From a virus: DNA of 21,875 nucleotides. The translations under genes were made by a program, and so were the position numbers. The stretch's first letter is position 1, and each line of letters starts with the position of its first letter. The DNA is taken from positions 1 through 21,875 of IMG/VR virus record IMGVR_UViG_3300008107_000476; one strand, given 5' to 3'. Positions 8,494 through 21,713 of this stretch are shown in pieces. Under the pieces are notes generated by a model that did no database searches, was not told the origin of the DNA, and saw only the letters and a list, made by a program, of their open reading frames with translations.

Positions 8494-8541
8494 TGGCAAG
8501 TTGAACTCCATCGGCAATACCGCCGGCGGAGATCACACACA

Positions 8542-9861
8542 GTGGACAACCTTAAGAAGCTGCAGGACGAGGCCGTTGCTCTCGCCAACCGGATCGACGC
8601 CGTGCGGGCGATCGAGAGCACCGACGCCGACAAGATCGCCGAGCGCGACCTTGAGCTCGAGACGCTCAACAGCGACGCCGCGAAGCTCGCCAAGAAGATC
8701 GACTTCGAGAAGTCGGTGGCCGACGCTTCCAAGAATCTCCGCTCCGTGGTGGACCGCTGCACCCCGGCTCCCGAGGTGCGTGCCGAGGAGCCCAAGGTGC
8801 GGATCTCGTCCGTGCCCTACGCGGGCAAGCTGCGTGCGTTCAGGTCGGAAGAGGACGCCTACAAAACCGGCATGTGGTTCAAGGCCAAGGGCGGCGACGT
8901 TGAGGCGAAGCGGTGGTGCCAGGATCACGGCGTCGAGAGCCGTGCCCAGGGCTCGACCGGCTCGACCACCGGCTCGGCCTTCGTGCCCGACGTTCTTGAG
9001 TCCACCGTGCTGCGGCTCGTCAACGACTATTCGGCGTTCGCCGCCAACGCGATGAACGTCAACATGGCGTCTGACTACGTGCTGTTCCCGAAGCGGACGG
9101 CCGGTGCCACGGCGTACTGGATCTCGGAAAACACCGCCATCACGGCGAGCGATCCGACCAGCACGCAGGTCAGCCTGACTGCGAAGAAGGTGACCGGGGC
9201 GGTGACGATTGCGAACGAGCTCCTGCGTGACTCGATCGTGAGCATCGCCGATTGGCTGGCCGCTGAGCTCTCGCTGACGCTGTCCACCGCCATTGAAACG
9301 GCGGCGTGGAACGGCAACCCGAGCAATGCCCCGGCTGTTGCCGGCATCGCCACGGGCTACACGGGCGGGCTCTACGCTTCGTCTGGTGCCACCTACGCGG
9401 CGTCGCTCGTGACGGCTGCCGGTGACACTCCCGACGAGGTGACCAAGGCCAACCTGCTGAAGATGATGGCTACCTTGCCCCAGCATTCGCAGGCGGGTGC
9501 CAAGTGGTTTGTTTCGCCGTTCTTCTTCGCCACCTGCATGCAGAACCTCGATCTTGCCCAGGGCGGATCGGTGGGCCTGTCGCAGGGGATGGGGCTGACG
9601 TTCCTCGGCAAGCCGGTGGTGCTCACCGACCAGCTGCCGGCTGGCTCGGACTCGACCGGCGTGGTGATGGCCCTCTACGGCGATCTGATGAACTCGTCGA
9701 TCTACGGTGTCCGCCAGGGCATCGAGATTGCTTCGAGCGATCAGGTGAACTTCCTGAGCGACCAGAGCGTGATTCGTGCGGTGGCTCGAGTTGCCATCTC
9801 GCACCACACGCTCGGCAGCGACACTGTCGCTGGCCCGGTCATCGGCCTCGTGGGTGCGTGA
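8542..9861 (+). CDS. Major capsid protein, HK97 gp5 family
   Basis: A 439-residue protein with a GTG start at 8542. The N-terminal 70 residues form a charged coiled coil (the delta domain that acts as scaffold), followed by a linker. The HK97 fold starts near GSTTGSAFVPDVL (about residue 141). Typical segments follow: TAYWISENTAITASD, LTAKKVTGAVTIANELL, the helix LAAELSLTLSTAIETAAWNG and KPVVLTDQLP near the end. The adjacent prohead protease should remove the N-terminal domain somewhere before about residue 140; the exact site cannot be read. It is the most abundant virion protein and is followed by a strong hairpin. Confidence 0.95.
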   Translation: MDNLKKLQDEAVALANRIDAVRAIESTDADKIAERDLELETLNSDAAKLAKKIDFEKSVADASKNLRSVVDRCTPAPEVRAEEPKVRISSVPYAGKLRAFRSEEDAYKTGMWFKAKGGDVEAKRWCQDHGVESRAQGSTGSTTGSAFVPDVLESTVLRLVNDYSAFAANAMNVNMASDYVLFPKRTAGATAYWISENTAITASDPTSTQVSLTAKKVTGAVTIANELLRDSIVSIADWLAAELSLTLSTAIETAAWNGNPSNAPAVAGIATGYTGGLYASSGATYAASLVTAAGDTPDEVTKANLLKMMATLPQHSQAGAKWFVSPFFFATCMQNLDLAQGGSVGLSQGMGLTFLGKPVVLTDQLPAGSDSTGVVMALYGDLMNSSIYGVRQGIEIASSDQVNFLSDQSVIRAVARVAISHHTLGSDTVAGPVIGLVGA

Positions 9862-9887
9862 GCGGCTTGACACCTGTGCAACGCTAG

Positions 9888-9915
9888 GCGGGCGGCTCCA
9901 ACCGGGGCCGCCCGC
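9888..9915 (+). terminator. Strong hairpin after the major capsid gene
   Basis: GCGGGCGGCTCC (9888-9899) pairs with GGGGCCGCCCGC (9904-9915), including one T-G pair, leaving a 4-base AACC loop. It stands 27 bases after the capsid stop. The following bases (TCTCGTTTGC) are only weakly T-rich, so it may be a leaky terminator or an mRNA end-stabilising structure that lowers expression of the genes behind it. Confidence 0.7.
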
Positions 9916-9934
9916 TCTCGTTTGCAGGGGCACC

Positions 9935-10666
9935 ATGCTAGTCAAAGTCGGTGGCACCGAAGTAGAGATCCGAGTCGAGGCCGTGCTGAGCATGCCTAGG
10001 CTCTCGTTCACGGCAAACCACTTTGCGTGGGCTCAAGCACTCATGCCCTTGGGCATTCGCCCCACAATGGGCACTGGTGCGTTCTGGGACCAAGTAAACA
10101 CGCGAGTCATGGAACAGTTCATTGACTCGGCCGAATATCTACTCTGCATCGACTACGACACGTTCTTTACGCGGCAGGATATTGAGACGCTGTTTGCCAT
10201 GGCGATGACGTTTCAATGTGACGCCATCACGGGGCTGCAAACCAAGCGAGAAGACGGCCGCCCAATGCTGACGCTCAAGGGCACGCTGGACTCGCCACCG
10301 GAGGAAGGGCACACGCAGCTGCCGGCGTCGTGGTTTGCCGAGCCCGTGCAGGAGGTGGACACGGCACACTTCGGCTGCACCGTGATCAGCACGGCCGCAC
10401 TCAAGCGAACCAAAAAGCCATGGTTTTGGAGCAAGCCAGATCCCGATGGCTCGTGGAACGACGGCCGGATTGATCCGGATATCTGGTGGTGGAAGAACTG
10501 GCGCGAGAGCGGCAACCGTGTCTTTATCTCACCCCGCGTCGTGCTGGGTCATGGCGAGTACGTCGTGACGTGGCCCGGCAAGAACCTCGGAACGCCTGTG
10601 TTTCAATGGGCGACGGAGTTCACGACAACCCACAAACGCCCCGAAACTGCATGGAGTGTCGGCTGA
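9935..10666 (+). CDS. GT-A-fold glycosyltransferase-like protein
   Basis: A 243-residue protein starting at ATG 9935. After a short N-terminal strand it shows SMPRLSFTANHF (residues 19-30), a mid-domain TGAFWDQVNTRVMEQF, then YLLCIDYDTFF with the metal-binding DxD motif Asp73-Tyr-Asp75, and HFGCTVIS in the acceptor part. It ends with DPDIWWWKNW and ISPRVVLGHGEY, which could hold the late histidine of GT-A enzymes. It likely transfers a sugar from a nucleotide donor to a virion protein or another target. It lies in the head module right after the capsid gene, so capsid or tail decoration is a reasonable inference. The donor and acceptor are unknown. An upstream in-frame extension reads through the hairpin and is rejected. 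Confidence 0.8.
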   Translation: MLVKVGGTEVEIRVEAVLSMPRLSFTANHFAWAQALMPLGIRPTMGTGAFWDQVNTRVMEQFIDSAEYLLCIDYDTFFTRQDIETLFAMAMTFQCDAITGLQTKREDGRPMLTLKGTLDSPPEEGHTQLPASWFAEPVQEVDTAHFGCTVISTAALKRTKKPWFWSKPDPDGSWNDGRIDPDIWWWKNWRESGNRVFISPRVVLGHGEYVVTWPGKNLGTPVFQWATEFTTTHKRPETAWSVG

Positions 10667-12188: not shown

Positions 12189-12892
12189 TGTCGGGCGGCA
12201 TTGATATCAAAGTTGAGTTTCCGGAAATGAAGCAGCTGCGGGACGCGTTCCGCAGTTTCCGCCCGAGCCTCGCAAGAAAGCACATGGGCGCGGCTATTCG
12301 TCGCAGCCTTGCACCAGGGCTAACGGCACTTAAAAGCAACGTCACTCGCGGCCCAACAGGGAACCTGTATCGCGGAATCACCAGCAAGGTGAAGACTTAT
12401 AAGAGCGGGAACGCCGTAGGGCTTGTGGGTTTTGTGGCTGCGGGCAGCGGTCGCTCCGCATCGGCCGGCGGCGGATCTGTGCGCCGGGGCAAGGACCGTG
12501 CTTTTCATGCCGGATTCGTTGAGTTCGGCACGAAAGAGCGATTCATCAAAACGTCTTCCATTCGCAGCGGTGCGTCAGTTGCGTCGAGCTTTAAGACACT
12601 CGGCGCGTTCAAGATTGCTCGAGTTGCTCGACGCGGAAAGTTTGCTGGCGTAGTCAGGGTGAACACTTCCCCTAAGTACCCAAAAGCGTTTTTCAAAAAG
12701 GCTTCTGCGGGGGAGCGGCTCAGCCTCAGGGAAATGCCTGTTGGCGGCAAAAAGGGGCAGCCACCCGTAAGGACGGCCTACCGTGAGTCGTTAGGCACGA
12801 TGCGATCAGCGCTGCAGGTTGAAATGACAAAGTCTCTGATTGCTGCGCAGAAGGACTTGGCTTCCAAGTTCCCCGTCAAGCCAAGAGGGTGA
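12188..12892 (+). CDS. Tail completion protein, HK97 gp10-like
   Basis: A 234-residue, very basic protein whose ATG overlaps the TAA of the preceding gene. The core HAGFVEFGTKERF (residues 107-119) is the hallmark of the HK97 gp10-like family, preceded by helices (LARKHMGAAIRRSLAPGL) and a short Gly/Ser-rich loop. It is longer than common members (about 130-170 residues) because of an insertion at about residues 120-180 and a helical C-terminus. It helps join tail to head. Family call from motif and gene order. Confidence 0.85.
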   Translation: MSGGIDIKVEFPEMKQLRDAFRSFRPSLARKHMGAAIRRSLAPGLTALKSNVTRGPTGNLYRGITSKVKTYKSGNAVGLVGFVAAGSGRSASAGGGSVRRGKDRAFHAGFVEFGTKERFIKTSSIRSGASVASSFKTLGAFKIARVARRGKFAGVVRVNTSPKYPKAFFKKASAGERLSLREMPVGGKKGQPPVRTAYRESLGTMRSALQVEMTKSLIAAQKDLASKFPVKPRG

Positions 12893-12896
12893 TTTG

Positions 12897-13310
12897 ATGC
12901 TTCGATCGCCTGAGTCAGTGCTGAGCAACGCTCTTGCCACAGCCCCGGCTGTCGCCATCCTCGTCGGCACTCGTGTCTATCCCTTGCTCGCGCCAGCTTC
13001 GGCCGCCCTGCCGTTTATTACGTGGCGTCGCGTTGGCATTGAGCGTGAGCAAACGCTCGGGCAGCCGTCCGGAATGCCACGAGTGAGCGTGGAATGCGTT
13101 ATGTACGGCACGACGTATCAAGAGGCCAGAAGTCTCGCCGACGCGGTGCGGGCTGTTCTGGATGGATACGGGGGGTTTTTCGACAATACAACGGTACGGC
13201 AGACGGCTCTGCAGGACGAGTCGGATGACTTTGTCACGCTGGCCGGAACTGATCTACCGCCCGTGTATCAGATCACGCAGCGATACGACGTAATGTGGAG
13301 CGAGGAATAG
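12897..13310 (+). CDS. Tail terminator, DUF3168 family
   Basis: A 137-residue protein starting at ATG 12897 after AGAGGG. It has the DUF3168 layout: an N-terminal helix (PESVLSNALATAPAVAILVGTRVYPLLAP), ALPFITWRRVG, a central strand block (RVSVECVMYGTTYQEARSLADAVRAVLDGY) and a C-terminal strand (PPVYQITQRYDVMW). This family forms the ring that caps the tail tube. Its position between gp10-like and tail tube genes agrees. Confidence 0.9.
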   Translation: MLRSPESVLSNALATAPAVAILVGTRVYPLLAPASAALPFITWRRVGIEREQTLGQPSGMPRVSVECVMYGTTYQEARSLADAVRAVLDGYGGFFDNTTVRQTALQDESDDFVTLAGTDLPPVYQITQRYDVMWSEE

Positions 13311-13314
13311 CAAA

Positions 13315-13692
13315 ATGCCCATCACGCCCCATGACTCCAGCGGCACGACATTCTCTTTTGCAGGCACGACCTACACTGTCACGTCGATCACGTACAGCAT
13401 CACCGACAATGCAACAACCGATCAGATCGACGTTTCGCACCTTGGCCAAACTGCTGGGCAGACCGTGCTGACGTTGGCTCGGCCTCTCAAGGGATCTGCC
13501 GGCGACACTGGCAAGGAAGTCACGATTGAGTATCTCGCCACGTCTGGCGGCCCGATCGCCCAGGGCGCAAACGGCACGCTTTCGATTGCCGGCGGCGTCT
13601 CGCTGAACGTCGGCGCAACGTGCAAGAGCTCAAGCATCACGCTTACGGTAAATGACGCCGTGCGTGGTTCAGCCGCATTCCAGGTGCCTTAA
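13315..13692 (+). CDS. Tail tube-like protein (candidate major tail protein)
   Basis: A 125-residue protein with AGGA upstream of the ATG. It is beta-rich with SITYSITDNATTDQIDVSHLGQ (residues 24-45), which resembles the loop and strands of phage tail tube proteins in this size class, then TLARPLKG and repeated Ser/Thr strands. There is no membrane segment. It lies just after the tail terminator, where the major tail protein is expected. A second candidate follows directly, so I cannot say which one builds the tube. Confidence 0.7.
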   Translation: MPITPHDSSGTTFSFAGTTYTVTSITYSITDNATTDQIDVSHLGQTAGQTVLTLARPLKGSAGDTGKEVTIEYLATSGGPIAQGANGTLSIAGGVSLNVGATCKSSSITLTVNDAVRGSAAFQVP

Positions 13693-13710: not shown

Positions 13711-14031
13711 GTGGCGACGTACAGCCAAGGCGTATCAGTGTCATGGGGCGGCACGCCCTTCACTGAGGTTGTCGGGCTCGATTGGCAGGTCGGCGGCGGC
13801 CCGCCTAAAGGTCGGCTCACCAAGTGGACTGATGAGGTTGGCTCAGTCAGCGTCACCACGCTGGGGACAGCCAATACCAGTTCCGATGAGTACGGCAATC
13901 GCAAACAGCTGACCATATCTGGTGGCGGCCAAGACTTGACCTCCTATGCAGTATGGGAGTCGTTGAGCGTTGCGAACGAAGTGAACGGCGTGGCTCGTTT
14001 CACCGTGACGTTCAAGCTATTGGATGCCTAG
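13711..14031 (+). CDS. Second small beta-rich tail protein
   Basis: A 106-residue protein with a GTG start at 13711 and a strong ribosome-binding site (AGGAG, six bases upstream). It starts ATYSQGVSVSWGGTPFTEV and ends GVARFTVTFKLLDA, a compact beta fold common in small tail tube proteins. It precedes the tail assembly chaperone, the usual place of the major tail protein. The good ribosome-binding site suggests high expression, so it may be the true tube subunit, with the preceding protein a partner, or the reverse. Confidence 0.7.
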   Translation: MATYSQGVSVSWGGTPFTEVVGLDWQVGGGPPKGRLTKWTDEVGSVSVTTLGTANTSSDEYGNRKQLTISGGGQDLTSYAVWESLSVANEVNGVARFTVTFKLLDA

Positions 14032-14034
14032 ACC

Positions 14035-14388
14035 ATGGGACTACGCGAGCAGATCAAATCGGCCAGCGTGCGAAAGCCTCTCAAGGTGCACGTGCGTGAG
14101 TGGAACATAGATGTTTTCGTCCGCGTGTTGAGTGTCGGCGAGCGTGATGATTGGGAGCTAGCGTGGATCGACATTCGCAGCAAAGGCGTCGAGAAGTTTA
14201 AGAACTTCCGAGCGTTCTACTTGGTGCGCACCTTGTGCGACGAGCATGGCGTGCGAATCTGGCAAGACAACGAGATCAACGAAGTTGCGTCGCTAGATGG
14301 TGCAGTGATGGGAGAACTGTTTGACGTGGCACAGAGGCACAACAAACTCACGGAGGCGGACGTAGTCGAACTCGCCGGCGAGCTTTAA
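14035..14388 (+). CDS. Tail assembly chaperone, gpG-like (upstream frame)
   Basis: A 117-residue protein between tail tube and tape measure genes. It begins LREQIKSASVRKPLKVHVREWNIDV with the compact alpha/beta pattern of siphovirus tail assembly chaperones, and ends EADVVELAGEL before TAA at 14386-14388. It binds the tape measure protein and tube subunits during tail assembly and is not in the finished virion. The frame that follows continues as a gpT-like domain, and the stop sits in CTT TAA C, so part of the product is probably extended by a +1 frameshift to 219 residues. Confidence 0.85.
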   Translation: MGLREQIKSASVRKPLKVHVREWNIDVFVRVLSVGERDDWELAWIDIRSKGVEKFKNFRAFYLVRTLCDEHGVRIWQDNEINEVASLDGAVMGELFDVAQRHNKLTEADVVELAGEL

Positions 14389-14695
14389 CGCGAGGCCGTC
14401 GCGTCGATTTCTCTTCATGCTAGCAAGTCATCTGCGGATGACTGTTGGGCAGATTGAGCGAGAGATGGACAGCCGCGAGCTGAGTGAGTGGCTGGCCTAT
14501 GCACGGTATTTTCAGCCGCTTGATAGCTCGTGGGCACAGACAGGACTTCTAGCCAGCGTGGTTTTGGCTCCTCACACACGACGTGGTCAATCGCCGTCCC
14601 CAGCAGACTTCATCCCATTGGAAAAGCCGCCGCAGCACCGCACGCAAATGCTCGACGTACTGCAGCAAATGAAACGGGACTTGGACGGCAAATGA
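14366..14695 (+). CDS. gpT-like extension of the tail assembly chaperone (downstream frame)
   Basis: This frame is open from 14366 (after TAG at 14363-14365) to TGA at 14693-14695. Its conserved-looking start, RRFLFMLASHLRMTVGQIERE, then MDSRELSEWLAYARYFQPLD, is the pattern of the T domain of G-T chaperones, and the RRF part lies before the only ATG (14417). No ribosome-binding site precedes that ATG; the bases are pyrimidine-rich. So it is most likely made only as a fusion after a frameshift at 14383-14386. If the shift is +1 at CTT, the extension adds 102 residues starting with NARPSRR. A free 92-residue product from 14417 is possible but less likely. Confidence 0.85.
   Translation, partial: SNSPASFNARPSRRFLFMLASHLRMTVGQIEREMDSRELSEWLAYARYFQPLDSSWAQTGLLASVVLAPHTRRGQSPSPADFIPLEKPPQHRTQMLDVLQQMKRDLDGK
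14383..14389 (+). promoter_or_regulatory. Candidate +1 programmed frameshift site, CTT TAA C
   Basis: The Leu codon CTT precedes the stop TAA. A one-base forward slip would re-pair the tRNA on TTT and continue with AAC in the T frame. This copies the logic of the prfB site (CTT TGA C). A small hairpin (ACGCG at 14388-14392 with CGCGT at 14400-14404) follows directly. The preceding GGCGAG is only a weak Shine-Dalgarno-like sequence. Confidence 0.65.
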
Positions 14696-14696
14696 T

Positions 14697-16025
14697 ATGA
14701 GCACCGCACTCGGCCTGGCAATGCAGATTACGGCGAATACTGCCCAGCTGGCGCAGGCTGTCGCTGACGTAAACAGCCGGCTTGACTCCATGGCCGCCGC
14801 TGGCCAAAAGGCTGCCGATGATCTCGGCACGCTCAAGAACCTAAAGATTGGCGAGCTTGCGGTTGGCGGTTTGCAGGCTGCCACCACTGCCTTCATCAAT
14901 CTGAGCGGCGCAGTGACAGGAGCAGTCACGAGCGTTGCGTCATTTGCGTTAAGCGTAGGCCAAGAACTGGATGCGCTCAACGACGTGGCGAACCGTACTG
15001 GCGTCGGGGTTGAGGCGTTGCAGGCATACGCTCGAGCAGCAGCCGACACCGGCATTAGCGTTGAGGGCTTTGCCAAACAGATACAGACGCTCACCCTCAA
15101 CATTGGAAAAGCGACGCTAGACGAAAAAGCGCAAAAGAAGTTTGAGGAGCTCGGCATTGTGTTCTCGGAGCTGAAGGAGCAGACGCCAGAGCAGCAGTTT
15201 GAACAAATCGTGGATGCGATTTCCCGCATTGCAGATCCTGCCGAGCGTGCGGCCACTGCTGTTAAGTTCTTCGGCAAAGGCGGCATTCAACTCGGCGAAC
15301 TCTTCACGCTTGGGCCAGGTGCCTTAGAGAAAATGCGTGAAGAGGCTATTGCCCTCGGGCAGGTTGTCAGTGCCGACGCCGTCAAGGCAATCGACAACAT
15401 GAACGACGCCTTCGGCAAGGTCTACGCGACGATCAAGGGCATTGCAGGGGCAATCCTTGGCGAGTTAGCAGGGCCAATAGCAACTATCGCCGAGGAGCTT
15501 CTTGGCGTCATTAAACAGGCTGGCCCGCAGCAGATCGCTCAGCAGGTGGCGTCTGGCCTGCTGGATTTCATCAAGCTGGCCGGCAACGCCTTTTTTAAGC
15601 TCGCTCAGTTTATTGAGGCTTTCGTAAACAAGTTTGCTCCAATCCTCGGTATTGATATTCGCTCTGAGGCTGAGAAAGAGTTGGAGACTCTGCGCGAGCA
15701 GCAGGCACGAGCATCTGCGGGAGCGGCAGGAGGCGGCATGGGCGGCGTTGTGCCTCAGTCGCTGCGTGGCGCGGAACTGACGCCCGAGCAACTTGCAAGA
15801 ATCCGCGAGCTTGAGACGCAGATTGCAGCAGAAGCCGCCGGCAGCGTGCTGAACAAGTTTCAAGCGAACTTCAACGCGGCCATCGACACAGCGTCAGACA
15901 GCCTGCGGCAGCGAATGGAAGCGCAAGCCGCGTCGGCAGAGCCAAACAAGGCCCAGAAGGAGCAGCTGGAGGTCTTGCGTCAGATCAAGCGGAATGGCGA
16001 AGTCGGCGTCGTGGAGTTTCTGTAG
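14697..16025 (+). CDS. Tail tape measure protein
   Basis: A 442-residue, mainly helical, Ala-rich protein directly after the chaperone genes. The N-terminus (ALGLAMQITANTAQLAQAVADVNSRLDSM) is the usual start of tape measure proteins. It has hydrophobic stretches at about residues 60-90 and 235-285 and long charged helices near 325-440. It sets tail length and is later ejected. It is short: at the common rule of about 0.15 nm per residue it would give a tail near 66 nm. No peptidase or lysozyme domain is seen. Confidence 0.9.
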   Translation: MSTALGLAMQITANTAQLAQAVADVNSRLDSMAAAGQKAADDLGTLKNLKIGELAVGGLQAATTAFINLSGAVTGAVTSVASFALSVGQELDALNDVANRTGVGVEALQAYARAAADTGISVEGFAKQIQTLTLNIGKATLDEKAQKKFEELGIVFSELKEQTPEQQFEQIVDAISRIADPAERAATAVKFFGKGGIQLGELFTLGPGALEKMREEAIALGQVVSADAVKAIDNMNDAFGKVYATIKGIAGAILGELAGPIATIAEELLGVIKQAGPQQIAQQVASGLLDFIKLAGNAFFKLAQFIEAFVNKFAPILGIDIRSEAEKELETLREQQARASAGAAGGGMGGVVPQSLRGAELTPEQLARIRELETQIAAEAAGSVLNKFQANFNAAIDTASDSLRQRMEAQAASAEPNKAQKEQLEVLRQIKRNGEVGVVEFL

Positions 16026-20801: not shown

Positions 20802-21713
20802 CTACCTCGGCTTCCCAGGCCCGTTAAGGTCCAGCGGCGGAAGTGCCGCCGTGCTGTCGCTGTCGTTCGGGCAGATCACCGGATCGACGTAGACACGCTG
20901 CAGGTTGGGGTCGCTGTGATCCAGCAGCTGAGTGGCAGCAGCCCGCCCGCCGGCCAGGGCGGCGTAACTCGCGGCCGTCCTGCGGAGCCCGTGGAATCCC
21001 CGGTATTTCACCCCGGCTGACTTGCACAGCAGTTTGAGGCTCGTCCACTGGCTGCGACTGCGGCGGTCCCACGGCCATACCAACTGGTGATCCTCGCGCC
21101 GGTGCTGGGCCAGCATCGCCGCCAAGTCCGGCGTGATCTGCCGCTCAATGTCCCTGGTTGAGCCCTTACGGGTCTCCCCGCGAAAGATGACCCGACGCCC
21201 GGCTAGGTCAACATCGCCCCACCTGAGCGACGTGGTGGCCTCATACCGCTCTCCGGTGCAGTAGATCGCGTAGATGAGCGTGCCCCACCACCAGGCGGCA
21301 GGCAGGCCGTCGATATAGCCGTTTCGGTGCCGAGCCTGCCGCACCAGGGCGGCGACATCCTCGGCCGTGTAGGCCCGGCCCGTGGGCAGACGCTTGGGCA
21401 CCTTGATCGTGGGCAGTTCGGGGAACTCAACGGCCAGACGTTTCCTGGCTGCATACGTCCACACGGCCGCAAGCATGACCCGGTCTTTGCGGACGCTCGC
21501 CGGGCTCGGCAACCGGCCACGCCAGCCGGGCGTCTCGGCTCGCCACCGTAGGTAGCGGGCAATCACCAGATCGTCGAGATCCCGCACCGTGGGCTCGTGG
21601 CCGAGGAATCGTTCCAGGCGATCCACGAGCATCCCGTACAGCGACACCGTCTTCCCTTTGAGCCCCCGCAGCAGGGCGTAACGCTCCACCAGTTCCTTCA
21701 AAGTCATGGCCAT
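20802..21713 (-). CDS. int: Tyrosine recombinase / phage integrase
   Basis: A 303-residue protein on the minus strand. An N-terminal SAM-like core-binding domain (about residues 1-90, TLKELVERYALLRGLKGKT) is followed by the catalytic domain with all key residues: Arg156 (TGERYEA), Lys183 (TRKGS), His241 and Arg244 (FHGLRRTAASY), His266 (LLDHSDPN) and the nucleophile Tyr275 (LQRVYVDP). It integrates and excises the phage at an attachment site. No separate arm-binding domain is seen. Start ATG 21713 is used, although Met3 could serve. Its minus orientation and position at the end of the gene set mark the lysogeny side of the phage. Confidence 0.95.
   Translation of the reverse strand: MAMTLKELVERYALLRGLKGKTVSLYGMLVDRLERFLGHEPTVRDLDDLVIARYLRWRAETPGWRGRLPSPASVRKDRVMLAAVWTYAARKRLAVEFPELPTIKVPKRLPTGRAYTAEDVAALVRQARHRNGYIDGLPAAWWWGTLIYAIYCTGERYEATTSLRWGDVDLAGRRVIFRGETRKGSTRDIERQITPDLAAMLAQHRREDHQLVWPWDRRSRSQWTSLKLLCKSAGVKYRGFHGLRRTAASYAALAGGRAAATQLLDHSDPNLQRVYVDPVICPNDSDSTAALPPLDLNGPGKPR

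Follow-up and report, generated by a model that had tools for sequence, protein, structure and literature searches.

How could two overlapping tail chaperone-like genes of an uncultivated phage, offset from each other by +1, be translated into a fusion? Tail chaperone pairs are normally joined by a −1 frameshift, and phage Mu uses a −2 slip. The stretch of DNA analyzed here (referred to as the window) is the 21,875-nt IMG/VR virus record IMGVR_UViG_3300008107_000476, positions 1 to 21,875. An earlier reading of this DNA (the sequence-only reading) had proposed that its two frames are connected by a +1 slip at CTT TAA C. The features relevant to this proposal are as follows.

12840-13310, + strand: tail terminator/tail completion protein (PF11367, E 2e-11; phrog_347)
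14035-14388, + strand: gpG-like tail assembly chaperone, short form, 117 aa (phrog_344, E 8e-23; intact in 97 relatives)
14350-14385, + strand: last 12 codons of G, nearly invariant synonymously (ACGGAGGCGGACGTAGTYGAACTMGCCGGSGAGCTT), probable upstream RNA element
14366-14695 (stop 14693-14695), + strand: gpT-like open frame, +1 relative to G (PF06223, Phage_tail_T, E 1e-7; phrog_337, E 5e-14)
14383-14389, + strand: putative +1 shift site CTT_TAA_C (P-site Leu codon, stop codon, next base)
14387-14692, + strand: gpT-like part that would be read after the slip, 102 aa (pN/pS 0.08 in its pre-ATG codons)
14417-14419, + strand: first ATG of the T frame, within the conserved T domain and without an upstream Shine-Dalgarno sequence
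14697-16025, + strand: tape measure protein, adjoining T downstream (phrog_9483 and other tape measure families, E 6e-21)

The locus is organized like a lambda-type G/GT pair. G-like and then T-like domains lie in order between the tail tube/terminator and the tape measure, the T domain is in a different frame that is open into the end of G, and the tape measure gene sits directly 3′ of T, the arrangement expected for a tail chaperone pair. ORF coordinates bore out the sequence-only reading on several points: the G frame ends GCC GGC GAG CTT TAA, then C; the gpT-like frame is offset by +1 and open from 14366; and a +1 slip at CTT would give a product of the proposed 219 residues (117 + 102). 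Searches of PDB sequences with G and T profiles returned no significant match, and the two proteins encoded upstream of G (13315-13692 and 13711-14031) show no detectable paralogy. From these data and those below, we are highly confident that the two genes form the G/GT chaperone pair of a siphovirus-like phage, joined by a putative +1 slip at CTT-stop.

If the junction is a +1 shift site, is it kept in related phages? Homology searches of IMG/VR identified 80 loci with a closely related G (82-100% identity); each carries CTT TAA C or CTT TAG C and has T in the +1 frame. Later searches extended this set to 97 homologous loci, where the junction codon is always CTT (97/97), the stop that follows is TAG in 52, TAA in 45, and TGA in none, with C (94) or T (3) as the base that follows it. 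The conservation of CTT-stop-C that had been suggested as a check on the slip thus holds for CTT but not strictly for C, as a few loci have T at that position. These loci, L394-L398, L312, and L319, form a sub-group with TAG T instead of TAG C after CTT and with greater synonymous variation upstream, and they show the shift context varying naturally.

Many of the 97 contigs are near-copies of one another; 35 representatives remain below 97% identity across G and most of T. Among these representatives, the terminal CTT codon shows no variation, while codon choice at the eight other G codons that always encode leucine differs in 48-74% of sequence pairs. We also conducted two degenerate DNA scans. 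Both set no constraint on the pre-stop codon and allowed TGA, and the second set none on the post-stop base either. Every place read back contained CTT followed by TAA or TAG (97 and 101 places, respectively); with both the P-site codon and the post-stop base free, CTT was found in 101 of 101. The 7-mer CTTTARC is not rare by itself, occurring once in the window versus 1.8 times expected; the excess over chance is its exact retention at the junction, not the frequency of the 7-mer. The lack of TGA need not reflect release factors, because TGA C would place Asp in the fusion instead of Asn or Ser.

Conservation extends upstream of the junction at the level of synonymous sites. Over its final 12 codons, G has a synonymous variation of 0.11, versus 0.35 in the whole gene, and 8 of these 12 codons have no synonymous variation, compared with 2 of the other 100 (permutation p about 1e-5); the T codons downstream vary normally after the first one. 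Such low variation at the end of G suggests an upstream RNA element, and this 36-base block probably stimulates the shift. An alternative is that the +1 shift is real but the block has another origin or function, as a recently spread recombination joint, a binding site, or an RNA-processing signal, a reading we consider a serious contender, if a somewhat disfavored one. It is consistent with our search for known types of stimulator: we found neither a stable nor a covarying RNA structure around the site (the covariation term is only −0.8), a downstream hairpin differs from one relative to the next (z from −3.05 to −0.53), and an Rfam search gave no match. Nor is there a Shine-Dalgarno sequence at the spacing used in prfB, 3 bases upstream of CTT; the best anti-Shine-Dalgarno match lies at least 26 bases upstream of CTT and is also present in relatives whose T is in the −1 frame. 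Against this alternative, the end of the block coincides exactly with the shift site, and the −1 relatives show a far weaker signal, with a milder dip in the last ten G codons (0.25).

We next consider whether T could be a separate protein that starts at ATG 14417, by re-initiation after G terminates 28 bases upstream, with no fusion made. This ATG is kept in all 33 +1 representatives, its distance from the G stop is short enough for coupling, and many relatives have a TTG or CTG in frame upstream of it (in 14 and 20 of 35 representatives, respectively), so some separate T could also be made. As the sole source of T, however, re-initiation is quite unlikely. T-family homology starts ahead of the ATG, as had been claimed from the sequence alone: the phrog_337 alignment begins at residue 11 of the open T frame, seven residues upstream of ATG 14417. 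The ATG also lacks a ribosome-binding site, as the same reading had held, in that no Shine-Dalgarno sequence precedes it, and the window's T frame contains no ATG, GTG, or TTG between its upstream stop and ATG 14417.

Selection on the stretch between the junction and the ATG (T-frame codons 2-10) points the same way. In the 35 representatives, pN/pS over these codons is 0.078 in the T frame, compared with 3.2 when the same bases are read in frame 0 and 1.5 in frame −1; for comparison, it is 0.14 for G codons 1-105 and 0.22 for T codons 12-90. Because protein-level selection here is strong, we conclude that this pre-ATG stretch is translated in the T frame, and no representative has an ATG within it. 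Re-initiation also leaves the invariance of CTT unexplained, and relatives are annotated as fusions.

Where could the ribosome change frame? In most relatives, a T-frame stop lies 12-14 bases upstream of the G stop, and T is open no further back than −11 relative to the G stop, leaving GCC GGC GAG CTT TAA as the only stretch in which the slip can take place. By pairing rules, a move of one base forward would allow re-pairing at CTT alone (to TTT), and a move of two bases back should allow it at none of these codons. This bears on a −2 slip as in phage Mu, which has that precedent in its favor and results in the same frame as +1. We regard it as highly unlikely, as GCC GGC GAG CTT appears to offer no two-back re-pairing, it would add a residue to the product and disrupt the gapless alignment described below, and a −2 slip would not require that the stop and CTT be kept. 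A pseudogene or a sequencing or assembly error, suggested by nothing but the split itself, is refuted by an identical arrangement in about 100 contigs and by two intact frames with low pN/pS, leaving it a negligible probability.

Distant homologs in isolated phages carry T in the −1 frame. The G genes of phiSASD1 and Dubu end ACG GGA AAC TGA, and the genes of both phages are annotated as joined; −1 relatives from IMG/VR end GGA AAA TCC TAA, GCA AAA AAC TAA/TGA, GGG AAA ACC TGA, or GCG GGG GAA TGA/TAA. A −1 heptamer (GGGAAAA, AAAAAAC, GGGAAAC, or GGGGGAA) is present at the end of G in 105 of 128 −1 loci versus 0 of 97 +1 loci, in agreement with the earlier statement that this junction has no run suited to a −1 slip. 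The heptamer marks the −1 subtype and excludes nothing from the family, since some known tail chaperones shift +1 or −2. Homologs joined by −1 had been named as a finding that would count against the +1 slip. They do occur, but in sister phages with a correspondingly different frame offset, and so they point to an evolutionary switch and leave the +1 reading standing.

No gaps are needed to align the +1 fusion with those made by −1 in these relatives. The rows at the junction read VVELAGEL-NARPSRRFLFMLASHLRMTV in the window and VEELTGN-LIARPERQFYFRLASHLGMPV in phiSASD1, with ELGKI-LNARPMRRFLFALAGHLGMTV and AIAGE-MNARPTLQFKLRLAGHLKKT in two further loci (L095 and L094, respectively). A quick-search tree of 101 fused proteins, which leaves out the junction residues and has several long branches elsewhere, places all +1 rows to one side of a single branch (SH-aLRT 99). 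The +1 loci are one clade, with one change of frameshift direction. The +1 type CTA GCC GGC GAG CTT TAA CGCC is two bases longer than the GGGGGAA type CTA GCG GGG GAA TGA ACGCC; these two extra bases would turn −1 into +1.

Together, the comparative data support a +1 slip at CTT-stop as the only reading that fits everything tested; from them we infer the slip itself, its direction, the slip codon, its efficiency, and the function of the upstream block. In the mechanism we propose, most ribosomes would terminate at TAA after CTT and release gpG (117 aa). A minority would stall while the P site holds Leu-tRNA paired with CTT and the A site presents the stop followed by C; the tRNA would then move one base forward and re-pair with TTT, and reading would continue with AAC GCG AGG to yield the 219-aa gpGT (junction ELAGEL-NARPSRRFLF). 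In phage lambda, the fusion links the tape measure and the tail tube during assembly, and gpGT may have the same role here; lambda-type pairs produce G and GT at a fixed ratio and require both for tail formation. The site would act like that of prfB, the gene for release factor 2, with TAA or TAG in place of TGA, and the nearly invariant 36 upstream bases probably act as RNA to promote slippage. When 32 shift codons were compared ahead of UAG, CUU_U gave by far the highest efficiency (PMC5009743). An ancestral −1 site was most likely replaced by the +1 site in one phage clade, which is known from metagenomes. A fuller scenario, which we put forward tentatively and consider less likely than not, is that the lineage went from −1 to a prfB-like TAA/TAG +1 site, that a new 36-base RNA stimulator took the place of the prfB Shine-Dalgarno sequence, and that the G:GT ratio is set by the speed of UAG/UAA termination and hence by the supply of release factor 1.

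Could the host's ribosomes make this slip? Planctomycetes are a plausible host phylum: some planctomycete genomes contain prophages with a 54-56% identical large terminase. No +1 member was present among 392 sampled in the planctomycete search, and a scan of genome contigs gave one weak match, in Phycisphaerales, with the −1 arrangement. In four planctomycete genomes with such prophages, prfB has CTT TGA C and a +1 continuation, so planctomycete ribosomes are likely able to make the slip; these genes were found by a family search, a direct pattern search being too strict. These four prfB genes (L390-L393) have no AGGGGG-type Shine-Dalgarno sequence 3 bases upstream, the stretch before CTT being, for example, AAGGACTCT.

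Other features of the window were also noted. A phage integrase (PF00589) is encoded on the opposite strand at 20802-21713 (−), so the phage is probably temperate. A 317-aa protein at 747-1700 contains a papain-like NSWG motif (LVQNSWGKWNTG) and is a possible cysteine peptidase; it has no Pfam or PHROG match. Between the capsid and head-tail adaptor genes, a 296-aa frame (9776-10666) has an IDYDTFF stretch that recalls glycosyltransferases; its single weak PHROG match is to a family with no function assigned in PHROG. Opposite the capsid gene, the other strand has a 492-aa open frame (8533-10011, −) that is probably a by-product of base composition.

The sequence-only reading expected a stop-driven TAA +1 site in a tail chaperone to be uncommon. 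On record, CUU-stop +1 sites are essentially confined to prfB: according to the PRFect study (PMC10885494), every such entry in RECODE is a prfB gene. As far as the literature searched shows, a tail chaperone with CUU-UAA/UAG is new. Selection has apparently maintained CUU-stop chemistry, with TAA/TAG, in a structural gene of a phage, and because homologs use −1 at the same protein position, the family offers a clean natural comparison of a change in direction with the product held constant. Such fusions are missed by annotation tools that seek −1 heptamers, and by PRFect, which includes no CUU-stop search. The upstream block is a directly testable candidate for a new type of +1 stimulator.

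How does this site compare with known systems? The lambda-type −1 G/GT pairs of phiSASD1, Dubu, and the IMG/VR relatives share homologous proteins, position, gene order, two products, and a gapless fusion alignment; they slip at X_XXY_YYZ or GGGGGAA, whereas the +1 clade would slip at CTT-stop and has no −1 heptamer. Mu makes the same net frame change and differs in direction and site. Bacterial prfB, whose +1 site has the consensus YTT_TRA_C (PMC3711429), resembles the phage site in its P-site CTT, A-site stop, C after the stop, +1 re-pairing to TTT, and conserved upstream sequence; of the CTT (or TTT) and C typical of prfB, the phage loci have CTT in 97/97 and C in 94/97. In contrast, the usual prfB stop is TGA, read by RF2 alone, while the phage clade has TAA or TAG and never TGA (0/97), which argues against simple RF2 autoregulation at the phage site. 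The prfB site also has a Shine-Dalgarno-like stimulator a few bases upstream, which the phage site lacks at that spacing, and prfB encodes release factor 2, whereas the phage locus encodes the tail chaperone domains of a tail gene whose short product is presumably functional. In the Listeria phages PSA, A118, and A500, tsh shifts +1 at CCC_UGA (PMC5009743). This too is a phage gene with a +1 slip at the codon before the stop, but the slip extends the major tail protein, not a tail chaperone, and uses a proline codon and UGA. The tail chaperone of the haloarchaeal virus HSTV-2 very likely shifts +1 (PMC5009743); it is likewise a chaperone pair joined by +1, in this case in an archaeal myovirus.
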